Source: Nannochloropsis oceanica (lineage: Eukaryota; Sar; Eustigmatophyceae; Eustigmatales; Monodopsidaceae). Taken from it: DNA of 64,000 nt. The position numbers and the translations under genes are program-made. Under the pieces are notes generated by a model that saw only the letters and a list, made by a program, of their open reading frames with translations, ran no database searches and was not told the origin of the DNA. Below, in pieces: positions 1,174-53,885 of this stretch (position 1 is the stretch's first letter; each line of letters opens with the position of its first letter). The DNA is taken from NCBI GenBank assembly GCA_004519485.1, contig CP038128.1, positions 1,319,001 through 1,383,000 of the forward strand, in the 5' to 3' direction.

Positions 1174-1215
1174 GTTAGCGTGGCCGAGTACTTTGGTTAA
1201 GGCGGTGGACTTGAA

Positions 1216-1253
1216 TGGGGTCTCATCGTTTCAATGCGCGTCGACCACGGATC
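1216..1253 (+). other. Canonical-position tRNA intron (between 37 and 38)
   Basis: About 38 nt between A37 and the 3' half of the anticodon loop of the tRNA-Ser. The exact boundaries can slide by a base or two. Confidence 0.7.
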
Positions 1254-1285
1254 ATCCACTGAGCACTGCTCTCGTAGGTTCAATC

Positions 1286-1339
1286 CACACGTGCGTCGAG
1301 ACGTCTGTTGGTATCGTCTCGTGGCCTGTGGGAACACAC
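1286..1339 (+). other. Putative ectopic intron in the T-loop of tRNA-Ser
   Basis: These 54 nt lie between T-loop sequence TTCAATC and the 3' T-stem CCTGC. They contain inverted repeat 1297-1303/1315-1321 with an 11-nt loop. Removal leaves a normal 7-nt T-loop. The B-box-like sequence GGTTCAATC stays contiguous upstream of the insertion. Confidence 0.65.
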
Positions 1340-1358
1340 CCTGCCGCTAACGTTCACG

Positions 1359-1365
1359 TTTTTTT
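1359..1365 (+). terminator. RNA polymerase III terminator of tRNA-Ser
   Basis: Seven consecutive T, six bases after the discriminator base at 1352. Confidence 0.75.
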
Positions 1366-1683: not shown

Positions 1684-1688
1684 AAAAA
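1684..1688 (-). terminator. RNA polymerase III terminator of tRNA-Arg
   Basis: Five T on the minus strand, seven bases past the discriminator base of the tRNA-Arg. Confidence 0.7.
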
Positions 1689-1695
1689 GAGACCT

Positions 1696-1822
1696 CACCG
1701 GAGATAGGAGTCGAACCTATGACCTTACCCTTAGGAGGGGTACGCGATCAGGCGCAAGAGCCCAGTGTCGATCAGCTGAATGACAACGCGGCGCAAAGCT
1801 TAATCCTCTACGCTACACCGGT
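1696..1822 (-). tRNA. tRNA-Arg(CCU) with a large D-loop insertion
   Basis: Read on the minus strand. Acceptor ACCGGTG (1822-1816) pairs with CTCCGGT (1703-1697) with one mismatch. TA at positions 8-9 is followed by GCG. The A-box-like TAGCGTAGAGG is intact and the B box GGTTCGACTCC is perfect. The anticodon stem TACCC/GGGTA encloses CTCCTAA, so the anticodon is CCT. The variable loop is AGGTC. T-stem ATAGG/CCTAT is perfect with loop TTCGACT. The D-loop (1747-1810) is about 64 nt instead of 8-10, so roughly 50-55 nt must be removed or looped out. Short direct repeats (TTGCGCC) flank the insert, and an internal stem TGTC/GACA is possible. No canonical anticodon intron is seen. The terminator and both promoter boxes argue for an active gene. 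Confidence 0.78.
1750..1803 (-). other. Putative ectopic intron in the D-loop of tRNA-Arg
   Basis: About 50 nt interrupt the D-loop between AGAGGATTAA and the 3' D-stem bases. Exact ends are ambiguous because the TTGCGCC repeats allow several equivalent boundaries. Confidence 0.55.
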
Positions 1823-36270: not shown

Positions 36271-39200
36271 GCTGACGAGAAGGTCATAGGAGGCCGTGCG
36301 TGGCATGTCCGGATGGGAATTGTAGTACGACTGAAGGAGGGAGGAGGGAGGGGGCGAGAGCGAGGCGGAGGAGGAGAAGGAGGAGGTGGATGTGGAGGAG
36401 GTGACGGGCAGGGCGCTCAGGTGGTGGCTGGACCGAGAGAGGGAGTCGGGAGTCGTGACTCGGGTGGGAGGGAGGGAGGGGGGGGGGGAGGACGCAGTGG
36501 GATGTAGGCCAGTAGGAAGGGAACGGCTCGAGCCCACGCCGGGCGGGGGGAGAACAAAGGTAGGGAGGGAGGGAGGGAGGGATGGAAGGACGGGAGAGCC
36601 GCCGCCGGTGCTGCTGCTGCTGCTGCTGTTGTTGTTGTTGTTGTTGTTGTTATTGTTGCTCTTGCCACTGCTGCCGTGAGGCATGTCTCCGTCGAGTCCT
36701 GTGCGGGAGACAGGGGGGCGGTTGGGTTGGGCAGGAGAGGAAGGGCGGGAGGGAGGGCGGGAGGGAGGGCGGGAGGGAGGGCGGGAGGGAAGGCGACCAA
36801 AGCTTGTTAGAGCAGCCGATGACGTAATGGCCAGCTCACGAGTCTCCGGAGAAGAGGAGCGACCTTCCTCTTCCCCTCCCTCCTCCTCCTCCTCGCCCTC
36901 CTCCTCTTCCTCCTCCTCCGACTCCTCCCCCACCTGACTACGACTCCTCCGCCTCCTCTCCCTCCTCCTCCTCTTCTCCTCCCTCCTCTCCTTCCTCTTT
37001 CTCAACACCTCTTCCTTCAACGCCGCGATCTGAAGTGCCAAGCCCTCCATCTCCCTCAGAGGAATATCAAGCTCCATTACCATCTCCTTCGCCACAGCAG
37101 CCGGAGAGTCCTTCGCAAGATCGAATTCAAACTCCACCTGAGGAAGAAGGGAGGGAGGGAGGGAGGGATGGAGGGAAGGGGGAGGGAAGGTGAGTATTGC
37201 TTGCTCTTGACGTTGAGAACGTACTACTCTTCCTCCCTCCCTCCCTCCCTCCCTTTTTCAGTACCTACCTCGGTTGGCTTGCCCTTCACCTCGGTGGCTA
37301 TCAATAGCGTCATACTCGACCTGCTCCCCGTCGTCCTCCCGGACCTCCGTCCCATCAACACCCCCCCCTCCCTCCCTCCCTCCCCCTCCCCCTCCATCGC
37401 CTCCTCCTCTTCCTCCTGCTCCTCATCCGCATCCCTCTGACTAATCGTCTCCAATCTTTTATGACTCCCCTCCCTCCCCCCCTCTCTCCCTCCTTCCCTC
37501 GGGCCGGTTGCCACGGTAGCTGTTGATTCGCTCAGACCGAGGCTGGCGTCACTGCTCGAGAGACGACGGAATGAGGACACGAGGGAGGAAGAGGAAGAGG
37601 AAGAGGGGGAGGAAGAGGGGGAAATGGTGTCGTGGGAAGTGGAAAAGGGAGGGCAGGAGGAGGAGGAGATCGGATCGTGGCGACCCTCCCCCTTTCTCTT
37701 TCCTCCTCCCTCTCCCTCCTCTTCTCCTTCTGATGACGGAGAGGAGGAGGAGGGGGAGGAGGAAGAGGAGGAGGAGCAGCAGCCTTGTGGATGACACAGG
37801 GTGAGACTGAAAGAGCGCTCCCCTTCGCCTAACCTGAGTGGACGGTATCTCTTCCCCTCCTCCTCTTCCTCCTCTTCCTCCTCTTCATCCTCTTCCTCCT
37901 CTTCCTCCTCCTCCTCTCCTTCTTCAACCTCCACCTCACCTTTTATGTTTCCCTCACCCTCCTTCTTTTTCCTTTTCCTTTTTTTCTTTTTCTCCTTCTC
38001 CTTCCTTCCACCTTCCTTCTCTCCTTCCTTATTTTTCTCCTCCCCCTCCTTCTTTTCTTCAAGCTCTTGCACCACCACCTCCTCCTCCTCGTCGTCGTCT
38101 TTCTCCTCCATCTGCTGCTGCTGTTGTTGTATTTCCTTACAGCGTCGAGACGACGGAGATTTTGGGGGAAGGCCATAAGGGCTGGCGGGAGGAGGAAGAT
38201 GGGCAGGGNNNNNNNNNNNNNNNNNNNNNNNNNNNNNNNNNNNNNNNNNNNNNNNNNNNNNNNNNNNNNNNNNNNNNNNNNNNNNNNNNNNNNNNNNNNN
38301 NNNNNNNNACAGCTTTGGCAGAAGAGGGGGAAGTGCAGGAGGAGGAGGAGGTGGAGGAGGAAGGAGCGGGGGAGGAGGCGAGAGACTGACTGCCAAGCTG
38401 CTGGTGCTGCTGGGCGGGGGAGGGGTGGGTGTGCGAGAGGTCCTCGAGATTAAGACCGGAGGGGGATCGACGGAGGCCCTCGTTAATGGCCGTGACGAGG
38501 AGCTGCTGCATGTTAAGGGAGGAGGATTTAGCGCGGGTGAGAGTGGGGCGGAAGGGAAGGACGGGAGGGAGGGACGCAGGACCAGCACCTGCACCACCAC
38601 CAGTAGCACCACCAGCGGTGCCGCCAGTACCAGCAGCGGTGCCAGCAGTACCAGCAGCTGTGGCAGTGGTGGTGGATGATGACTTGGAAGGGGTGGGGGG
38701 CGAAGAATGATGAATAGTAATAACGGAGGACGAGGGCGGGATGTGTAGAGGAGGATTAAAGGGCGCCCCTCCCTCCATCCCAACCATCTTCCCTTCCCCC
38801 TCTTCATCCACCACGCTCGATTCCGCGTCTGAGCCTCCTCCTCCCCCTCCTTCTCCTCCCCTCCCTCCTATTCCCTTCTTTTCTTCCCCCTCCTCCACGA
38901 GCTCCGTCCCTCTCGCACCCATAACTTTCACCTTCTTGATGGAACACTCCGCCGTCGGCATCTCGCTCAACAAATCGTCATCCTCCCCTTCCTCCCCCCC
39001 TTCCTCCCTCCCTCCCTCCTCCCCCCCCCCCTCCTCCTCCTCCCCATCCAGCCTCCTCCCTCAACACACTCCTAGGGCTCCTGCTCCCATCCCTCCCTCC
39101 CTCCCTCCCCGCTCCAAAGCCCCACCCGTCCCCCACCTCCTCCTCCACCCCCTCCAAAAACCACCCGTCCTCCCCCCCCCCCCCCCCCTCCTCCCTCCCC

Positions 39201-51896: not shown

Positions 51897-53135
51897 TCAC
51901 CTCACCGTCATCCTCCCCAGCACCCTCGCCCCCAGCGCGTACAACACTGTATACATGACCACTTGTACCCCCATCCACAGCAGTACATCCAATGCCAAAT
52001 CTCTCCATCGGGGCCCTTCCTCCTTCCCCCCCTCCACCATTACCCCTCCCTTTCCCTTGTAGTAATCGTCCAAGAAACGATCCTTCTCTTCAAACCGACG
52101 CGTAAGCCACTGCCGCACCTTATCCTCCTCCTCCCAGGGGATCTCCCGCATATCGAACGTCCGCACATTCAAATGCACATACAGTGGCGTTGGATGATAT
52201 TTGACCAAGTCTATGACATTGAAAGGTGCATTGTACAGGGAGGAAGTTGGGGGGTAGGCAATGGTTATGTCCACTAGTGTCTCCATTCCCTGCCGATGCA
52301 GCGCTTGGCCAGCCTCGAGGAAGGCACCGTGCTTTGGCAGCAGGCAGTGATCGAGCAGGGGAAGGTTGTTAGCTTGGGCGTATTCGTGGGATTTCTGAAG
52401 CATACATTCCCGAAAAACGGCGCCCTCGGGGAAGAGGAAAAACTTCGTCATCCTCCGTTGAAAAAAACGCGAAACGCTCTTGCGGATTGTCTCGAGGTCC
52501 ATCTCTTTCCCGTACCCTAAAACAGGGCATTCTGACATGTAGGCAATCCATCCCAAGGGCATGTTGATGAACCCCCGCCACATTGGCCAACAGGTATCGC
52601 CGTTGACGCTGTTGTGGGCATGCAGCCAAGGGGAGAGGACGAAGGAATCTGCCCACGAGAGGTGGTTGATCATGATCAAGGCACGGGGAAGCTTGCCGGG
52701 GGTGAAAAGGTCGATGTACCGTTGCCATGACGAGGACCAGGAGGAGGAGGAAGAAGAAGGCATGGTCCCCAGGCCAGAAGCTGCTGCAGCGTGCCCTGTG
52801 ACCCGCAGTCGAATGTTGGCCCACTTGAGGAAGATCATAGGGGGGAGCCAGCCGAAGCGAACGCCAAGGATGCGGGTTGCGTGCCATATTGGTGGATACA
52901 TCGGCGCAAACACCACGTACATGACTAGTTCCAAAAATGCGGCCGACCAGAAGTTTAGGAGAATGAGTACCGCGAGGAAGTAGCCTAATAAATCGGCCGA
53001 GATGGATGCCGAGACCTCACGGGTTTTGCTGCCGCCGGCGCCACCATTTACTTTGTCGCTCGACGTGTCCAAGGGTCGGGTCTCGAGCCGCTCACCATTT
53101 CGTTGGGGCGTGGACGGCGTTGTTGGCGTCCCCAT
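51897..53135 (-). CDS. PlsC-type acyltransferase (LPAT-like)
   Basis: Uninterrupted frame; from ATG 53135 the protein is 412 aa. In-frame ATGs at 53306 and 53555 could extend it, but the added sequence looks non-conserved. Hydrophobic helices at the N-terminus (LLGYFLAVLILLNFWSAAFL) and C-terminus (ALDVLLWMGVQVVMYTVLYA) indicate an ER or plastid-envelope membrane enzyme. Motif I INHLSWADSF contains the HX4D catalytic pair; motif III is FLFPEGAVFRE; motif IV-like ITIAYPPTSS. It is expected to acylate lysophosphatidate or another lysophospholipid from acyl-CoA in glycerolipid synthesis. A Ser-rich insertion (PSSSSSSWSSSW) lies just before motif I. Substrate cannot be read from sequence. Confidence 0.9.
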   Translation of the reverse strand: MGTPTTPSTPQRNGERLETRPLDTSSDKVNGGAGGSKTREVSASISADLLGYFLAVLILLNFWSAAFLELVMYVVFAPMYPPIWHATRILGVRFGWLPPMIFLKWANIRLRVTGHAAAASGLGTMPSSSSSSWSSSWQRYIDLFTPGKLPRALIMINHLSWADSFVLSPWLHAHNSVNGDTCWPMWRGFINMPLGWIAYMSECPVLGYGKEMDLETIRKSVSRFFQRRMTKFFLFPEGAVFRECMLQKSHEYAQANNLPLLDHCLLPKHGAFLEAGQALHRQGMETLVDITIAYPPTSSLYNAPFNVIDLVKYHPTPLYVHLNVRTFDMREIPWEEEDKVRQWLTRRFEEKDRFLDDYYKGKGGVMVEGGKEEGPRWRDLALDVLLWMGVQVVMYTVLYALGARVLGRMTVR

Positions 53136-53885
53136 GCGGCTTTTAAGGGGGGCCCACGGCAACGGCAACCTACAGCAAGAGCGACAGCCTGGGAGAAGTA
53201 TCCTCCTTTGATTCGATGTGTCGAATCGAAGCCCGTCCTGTGATTTGGTGGGTGGCTGTAGCGTGGAAAAGCGACGGGGGGCGAGCCAGTAAGTGGGCGA
53301 CTGCATGATTACAAAGAGAAAGGACGGAGGACGTGAAGAACCACACAGCAAGGGGCAGCCTAGACTCGCCGGTGGTATTGGAGGAGTCCAAGCCCGCGTT
53401 GTCGAGGTTTTGTCGATGTCTGTCACTCGCCACCGCGATTGCTTTGTGAGCTCGCGTCCTCTGGTTTGGGTGCAGTGAATGTCACACACACACACAGATA
53501 CTTTTGAGACGACGGCGGACACTTTAACGTGATATGTTCTACCTGTGTCTTCCATTCCCCCCTGCCTGTTACCCTCCTACAACAGGCGGCGGAGCGTCAG
53601 CCTCCCCACTCGCCACCCCTGCTTCTTCTCGCCTTGTCAAGCCGTGACACCTACACGACCCCTTTATCCTCTTTTTTCAATGCCTGGTCAGCACTACCAT
53701 CATCATGAGATTAGATCACCCCCCGCCGGTATTTTGAGTCCACTTAAGCCATTCCTCCATCCCTACATATCATATTATTTATTACATAGCAGAGGCCCTG
53801 TTCCCTTCCCCATTGGGCCCTCGATCCTCTCATCAACTACCCCAGAACAACAACGCATCAACTCGCTGTCCCATTTACCTCCACC
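53136..53885. promoter_or_regulatory. Divergent 5' region of the acyltransferase and SRPBCC genes
   Basis: 750 bp; the acyltransferase frame stays open up to 53555, so part of this may be its coding or 5' UTR sequence. Confidence 0.35.

Follow-up and report, generated by a model that had tools for sequence, protein, structure and literature searches.

The nuclear tRNA-Ser(UGA) gene of the stramenopile alga Nannochloropsis oceanica is interrupted at two places, by 38 nt at position 37/38 and by 54 nt inside the T-loop. The gene occupies positions 1174-1352 (+) of the 64-kb stretch of DNA analysed here (the window), which is part of contig C3 (1.58 Mb). Seven other tRNA genes of the same genome have introns at comparably abnormal positions, which suggests that tRNA splicing in this alga takes place at sites not known in most eukaryotes. 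In our preferred reading, to which we give a probability of about 0.85, these are working single-copy genes in which the tRNA endonuclease would recognise a local bulge-helix-bulge (BHB) motif and excise the ectopic intron before the 37/38 intron is removed. To judge from its sequence, the window gene would be a working gene and probably the sole nuclear tRNA-Ser(UGA) of the species.

When both inserts are removed, every stem pairs: the acceptor stem is complete (7/7), the D-stem is GCC/GGC (3/3), the anticodon stem GTGGA/TCCAC (5/5) and the T-stem GTAGG/CCTGC (5/5, including one G.U), with a variable arm of GAGC/GCTC, a TGA anticodon and a discriminator G. This intron-free form is the cloverleaf of a eukaryotic nuclear tRNA gene, with a D-loop of 15 nt, and the locus carries the sequence signals expected for polymerase III, i.e. 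an upstream element as in the sister genes, a box B-like sequence and a T-run (Table 1). Only the 38-nt intron sits at the canonical position; the 54-nt one is an intron outside 37/38, of the Cyanidioschyzon merolae type, as found in 8 of the 28 tRNA genes that we recovered. The two halves of the gene stand in the normal order, and circular permutation, with the 3' half upstream of the 5' half, is absent. Four registers of the T-loop insert leave a valid T-arm, and a strict BHB forms at 58/59 only. A preliminary description of this DNA had proposed a tRNA-Ser(UGA) gene interrupted twice, once inside the T-loop, by about 38 and about 54 nt and followed by a T7 terminator. Insert sizes and terminator came out as claimed, and the double interruption is borne out by stems that are intact without the inserts and by a scanner hit above its Markov control.

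Table 1. Features of the two interrupted tRNA genes (positions within the window)
Feature	Position	Strand	Remarks
TATA-like element TCTATAAA	1135..1142	+	position -39; 6/8 letters of TTGATAAA
tRNA-Ser(UGA) exon 1: acceptor 5' strand, D-arm, anticodon 5' half with TGA	1174..1215	+	100% match at this genome locus only
ACTTT, 5-nt excess of the D-loop, possible micro-intron	1190..1194	+	suggested by the behaviour of ARAGORN
Canonical 38-nt intron, 37/38	1216..1253	+	exon helix of 7 bp; no intron outer helix
tRNA-Ser(UGA) exon 2: anticodon 3' strand, variable arm, T-stem 5' strand, T-loop TTCAA	1254..1283	+	
Box B-like sequence GGTTCAATCC	1277..1286	+	judged against the box B consensus; last three bases intron-derived if the junction is 58/59
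Ectopic T-loop intron, 54 nt, favoured junction 58/59	1284..1337	+	58/59 to 61/62 all compatible with the sequence
tRNA-Ser(UGA) exon 3: T-loop end, T-stem 3' strand, acceptor 3' strand, discriminator G	1338..1352	+	
T7 run, presumed polymerase III terminator	1359..1365	+	judged by sequence
T5 run, presumed tRNA-Arg(CCU) terminator	1684..1688	-	
tRNA-Arg(CCU), about 47-55 extra nt within the D-loop or adjoining the D-arm	1696..1822	-	scanner score 18-18.5

Neither ARAGORN nor Rfam (at gathering thresholds) reports a tRNA in the window. The genes appear with an intron-tolerant scanner, which tolerates introns at four places: the D-loop, the site behind position 26, the anticodon loop and the T-loop. 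Run over the window in both orientations, it gives two hits with a score of at least 13, tRNA-Ser(UGA) (16.5) and tRNA-Arg(CCU) (18.5), against none in 1.28 Mb of control DNA (20 Markov sequences, 64 kb each, one strand), which rules out a chance cloverleaf for tRNA-Ser(UGA); these figures belong to a version whose D-loop limit had been widened after the first one missed tRNA-Ser(UGA) because of its long D-loop, and whose T54 rule had been relaxed once tRNA-Tyr, read by eye, proved to be missed. With a threshold of 12 the scanner never found tRNA-Asp, which was read by eye, and it splits elongator tRNA-Met differently from the reading adopted here. ARAGORN rejects the spliced 87-mer of tRNA-Ser(UGA) because of the long D-loop, and calls tRNA-Ser(tga) once 5 nt of the D-loop are also removed. 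The spliced forms of the other seven ectopic-intron genes are all called with the expected anticodon (7/7), by a program lenient enough to call two of the seven unspliced precursors (Phe and Pro) without its intron option.

The D-loops of tRNA-Ala(CGC) (L062) and tRNA-Lys(UUU) (L065), of 13 nt, share with that of tRNA-Ser(UGA) an excess of 5 nt over the usual length, and a 5-nt deletion restores a usual D-loop in all three. ARAGORN accepts the Ala and Lys genes with or without the 5 nt. The excess in tRNA-Ser(UGA) may be a further micro-intron, or merely a long D-loop; putative 5-nt micro-introns at this place would be similar to the introns of 3-24 nt in the Guillardia nucleomorph (PMC4090602).

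The second disrupted tRNA of the window, tRNA-Arg(CCU), lies about 340 bp from tRNA-Ser(UGA). Its anticodon loop is intact and its acceptor stem has one U.U mismatch. The position of its insert is ambiguous: scanner runs place it in the D-loop or after position 26, and the intron option of ARAGORN gives a 53-nt intron, also near position 26. The spliced form is called as tRNA-Arg(cct), and no uninterrupted copy was found in the genome. Elsewhere in the window, SLPPSLPPS and EGGREGGRE repeats are abundant in many predicted reading frames, for instance the ORF at 37224-38807 (-), which contains a run of unknown bases. The product of a 552-aa ORF at 51897-53555 (-) is 100% identical to an N. oceanica protein across 75% of the query.

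Upstream signals were assessed by scoring the 60 nt before 22 genes against TTGATAAA, a motif derived from those same 22 regions. At least six of its eight letters occur upstream of 14 of the 22 genes, with all starts within -41 to -37, compared with a mean of 5.1 such genes, and never more than 12, in shuffled upstream regions; the count is partly circular because the motif came from the scored sequences, and the tight spacing is the stronger point for a putative promoter. Phe and Pro carry the element at -39 like tRNA-Ser(UGA), Arg-CCU at -38 and Lys-CUU at -40. Leu-UAG has no good match upstream, and Ser-GCU and Asp show TATA-like stretches at a similar distance by eye. The upstream element is common to ectopic-intron and ordinary tRNA genes.

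The genome search covered 29,264,788 bases in 32 contigs; the assembly is described as 30 nuclear, one plastid and one mitochondrial sequence with a total of 29,303,273 bp (PMC6610115). Genes were recovered with RF00005, T-arm patterns and D-arm patterns, then with the scanner and by eye, as the Asp, Tyr and elongator Met genes first were. This yielded 28 nuclear tRNA genes: 15 uninterrupted, five with a 37/38 intron only and eight with ectopic introns, a proportion (8/28) that is no unbiased rate because the genes came from T-arm, D-arm and Rfam searches. The uninterrupted genes are Ala-UGC, Ala-CGC, Ala-AGC, Thr-UGU, Thr-CGU, Val-UAC, Val-CAC, Ser-AGA, Ser-CGA, Ile-AAU, Leu-CAG, Leu-AAG, Lys-UUU, Glu-CUC and Arg-ACG, and those with a 37/38 intron only are Asn-GUU (16 nt), Val-GAC (35), Glu-UUC (45), Tyr-GUA (34) and elongator Met (26). 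Ectopic introns lie in the T-arm of six genes, Ser-UGA (54 nt, plus 38 at 37/38), Ser-GCU (55, plus 23 at 37/38), Phe-GAA (45), Leu-UAG (50), Pro-UGG (52) and Asp-GUC (49), and in the D-arm region of two, Lys-CUU (44-46) and Arg-CCU (47-55). These eight genes are spread over seven contigs; a single acceptor-stem mismatch occurs in each of Arg-CCU, Pro-UGG and Asp. The list of 28 is incomplete, given that nuclear genes for the tRNAs of Gly, Gln, His, Cys, Trp and initiator Met did not turn up; the genes concerned may be otherwise disrupted, permutation included.

Spliced sequences of the eight ectopic-intron genes were searched against the genome, and no uninterrupted copy of any of them was found: all matches (16/16) are to their own broken loci and stop at the inserts. 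This search is strong, not absolute, because only the best candidates get scored. The same search with 17 other tRNAs returned their own loci only, plus one cross-match between Leu isoacceptors and a weak 36-nt fragment near Ser-AGA. An intact tRNA-Ser(UGA) gene at another locus, which the preliminary description had considered, was thus not found at the sensitivity of the search, and its proposal that this lineage has ectopic tRNA introns gains from seven further genes, from the lack of uninterrupted copies and from the BHB motifs at the junctions. Phe and Asp have one anticodon each, and therefore their interrupted genes must work if the assembly is complete.

Pattern matches were examined in part, the others being judged from the matched letters or left aside. 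No tRNA was found at loci L072-L075, L077-L079 and L081 (L079 by scanner only), nor at L082, L084-L087 (these four by scanner only), L111-L114 and L116-L118. Scanning of 16 further T-arm-pattern loci gave no tRNA at 15, and the remaining one, L043, is elongator Met. The D-arm loci L088-L107 are mostly devoid of tRNAs, which occur in L094, L096, L097, L099 and L107. For two patterns, no relatives were found in viral contigs. A tRNA-like sequence at C16:426250-426320 (+) (L068; RF00005, 34.7 bits), with CCA directly after it, was not accepted as a 29th gene since it has no good anticodon stem by eye, and is perhaps a tRNA-derived or transferred copy.

The BHB motif consists of a 4-bp helix and two 3-nt bulges. 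For each T-arm intron we listed all registers that leave a sound T-arm and asked for a strict fit, in which each 3-nt bulge is cut behind its second nucleotide, the exon and the end of the intron form a central helix of 4 bp, and a stacked outer helix lies within the intron; 5000 shuffled introns served for comparison. Such a motif fits at a permitted register in five of the six T-arm introns, one of them with three of the four central pairs: Ser-GCU at 62/63 (GAAT/GTTC, outer helix 6; 1/5000 shuffles), Leu-UAG at 56/57 (GGGT/GCCC, outer helix 7; 3/5000), Ser-UGA at 58/59 (GTTC/GAAC, outer helix CCACA/TGTGG of 5 bp; 15/5000), Asp at 55/56 (3/4 central pairs, outer helix 5; 19/5000) and Phe at 55/56 (4 pairs, outer helix 4; 119/5000). 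Pro-UGG has no strict BHB at its permitted registers (2690/5000). Taken over all six introns, Fisher's procedure gives a combined p of about 5e-9, for a score that was fixed after the Ser-GCU and Ser-UGA junctions had been viewed by eye, a null that shuffles single letters of the intron, and Ser-GCU registers for which G53-C61 was required. A single conserved T-loop site at 59/60 was dropped because the geometry favours 55/56, 56/57, 58/59 and 62/63 in different genes. In Ser-GCU (C11:907992, L099), the favoured junction lies within the 3' strand of the T-stem and not in the T-loop.

The D-region introns have a weak BHB in Lys (331/5000) and none in Arg (1598/5000). All seven 37/38 introns lack an outer helix (0-2 bp in the registers listed), and six of them have exon helices of 5-8 bp, elongator Met being the exception; an exon helix without an intron outer helix appears to be the usual eukaryotic form at 37/38, as we read PMC3978253. 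Minimum folds were computed with the Ser precursors already freed of their 37/38 introns. Just two genes, Ser-GCU and Leu-UAG, show the whole BHB in that fold (central pair probability 0.63 and 0.28), and it lies 1.4, 2.9 and 3.3 kcal/mol above the minimum in Asp, Ser-UGA and Phe (0.06, 0.02 and 0.00). The fold of the whole tRNA-Ser(UGA) precursor is not unusual (z -0.99), a test that is uninformative. The preliminary description had looked to BHB folding at both junctions of this gene: the T-loop junction at 58/59 fits, outside the minimum fold, and the 37/38 junction, with no outer helix, does not.

For tRNA-Ser(UGA) we infer transcription, splicing, the order of the two splicing steps and the enzyme along the following lines. 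Polymerase III would transcribe the gene from the TATA-like element and internal boxes to the T7 run, giving a pre-tRNA interrupted at 37/38 in the ordinary way and, ectopically, in the T-loop. The T-loop intron would itself supply the docking structure: the 5' side of the T-loop would pair with the 3' end of the intron (GTTC/GAAC) and the two intron ends with each other (CCACA/TGTGG), so that both cut sites come to lie in bulges. Recognition of this local BHB would let the tRNA-splicing endonuclease cut the intron, the exons would be joined and the T-arm would form; the 37/38 intron would be cut last, in the mode that requires a mature tRNA body. The yeast-type enzyme is described as measuring from that body and requiring the elbow between D-loop and T-loop (PMC6379350, PMC3978253), and the T-loop intron removes the elbow, hence its placement before the 37/38 intron in this scheme. 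The same order is supposed for C. merolae, where D and T introns would be removed before the anticodon intron (PMC9602550). In this lineage, the endonuclease would recognise non-canonical sites. A search for the PF01974 family found a single endonuclease gene, with two exons, at C15:810834-811162, the first exon being above the cut-off and the second below; the joined two-exon query has seven relatives, all without names. We read this gene as a candidate Sen34.

A pseudogene reading would have insertions break old tRNA copies, with intact copies at other loci taking over; as none were found for Phe and Asp, the nucleus would then lack these two tRNAs. Short D-arm or T-arm insertions in eukaryotes do mostly hit one of many synonymous genes and are taken as pseudogenes (PMC4090602), the window tRNA-Ser(UGA) is called by neither ARAGORN nor Rfam, and sequence may be lacking from the assembly, with a gene list that is incomplete. 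Yet the eight genes are single-copy with no uninterrupted copy found, and stems, promoter element and T-run are intact, which makes such decay quite improbable; a lone oddity is likewise unlikely given the recurrence and the lack of backup copies. A chance resemblance or an assembly error, for which nothing positive speaks, is hardly credible in view of a scanner control of 0 in 1.28 Mb and of a common theme in eight genes on seven contigs.

The introns could also be real and be removed otherwise than by BHB cutting of the tRNA endonuclease, for instance by a different nuclease. We find this improbable, given the BHB fit in five of six T-arm introns and a 54-nt intron which, starting with TCC and ending with CAC at 58/59, is unlike spliceosomal or self-splicing introns. 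It would suit Pro-UGG and Arg-CCU, which have no strict BHB, and a Ser-UGA motif that is not the computed minimum, and many introns of the Guillardia nucleomorph are without a defined BHB (PMC3978253). Finally, the minimum fold presents the Ser-UGA insert as a hairpin atop an intact T-stem, as if inserts were retained in mature molecules as extended T-arms or D-arms of unusual, unspliced tRNAs. Among the six T-arm genes, however, the favoured junctions range from 55/56 to 62/63 and the lengths from 45 to 55 nt, and the inserts would abolish the elbow, so that retention is very unlikely.

Endonuclease cutting of ectopic introns at a BHB can be compared with known systems: ectopic tRNA introns have been described in the C. 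merolae nucleus, in nucleomorphs and in Crenarchaeota (PMC4090602, PMC3978253, PMC4033280). C. merolae likewise has D-arm and T-arm introns in nuclear tRNA genes, several per gene, with BHB-type junctions (PMC3978253, PMC4090602, PMC9602550), but it belongs to a different eukaryotic supergroup, permuted tRNA genes are typical of it, and its splicing was shown by RT-PCR, whereas splicing in N. oceanica is predicted from sequence. The nucleomorph of the cryptophyte Guillardia theta also has D-arm and T-arm insertions, two or three per gene in some; these measure 3-24 nt, many have no defined BHB, and they reside in a remnant red-algal nucleus (Kawach et al. 2005, via PMC4090602), in contrast to 45-55 nt in the T-arm, the nucleus proper and a BHB register in five of six in N. 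oceanica. Crenarchaeota have T-arm introns too, e.g. at 53/54, 56/57 and 59/60, with BHB or relaxed motifs (PMC4090602). They differ by their symmetric archaeal endonuclease, which lacks the accessory subunits known from eukaryotes. The canonical 37/38 introns of eukaryotes are of the same kind as the 38-nt intron of tRNA-Ser(UGA) and six others in this genome; this type cannot explain the T-loop intron, because the latter disrupts the required elbow (PMC6379350).

A literature search found no report of such introns in Nannochloropsis or in a stramenopile nucleus, and none pairing Nannochloropsis with tRNA introns, which is no proof of novelty because most subscription journals lay outside its coverage. 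In the N. oceanica genome paper, tRNA prediction relied on tRNAscan-SE and, in the text available, tRNA introns are not mentioned (PMC6610115). The main text of a eustigmatophyte genome paper has no word beginning with tRNA (PMC8570151). A bisulfite study of N. oculata detected 35 tRNA isodecoders, the word intron being absent from its available text (PMC4535395), and a text match for stramenopiles and tRNA introns concerns Clp1 kinases (PMC10598085).

For eukaryotes, the literature surveyed documents tRNA genes with ectopic BHB introns in the nucleus of one red alga and in nucleomorphs. Their presence in a stramenopile nucleus would mean that the trait either arose again or came with the red-algal endosymbiont, and a large contribution of red algae to the N. 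oceanica nucleus is argued for in its genome paper (PMC6610115). A bolder picture, which we consider rather unlikely as a whole, is that of a tRNA set of scattered BHB introns: single-copy genes, a large share of them with T-arm or D-arm introns, 5-nt D-loop micro-introns in addition (tRNA-Ser(UGA) being triply interrupted), a body-independent endonuclease, and a trait that a red alga and a red-algal nucleomorph also have and that was possibly inherited from the red-algal endosymbiont and not evolved anew. For annotation, the case is a warning that standard procedures miss essential tRNA genes in N. oceanica, such as tRNA-Ser(UGA) with ARAGORN and Rfam. For the biology of splicing, N. oceanica would give laboratory access to the question of how the tRNA endonuclease of a eukaryote can cut when no mature tRNA body is present.
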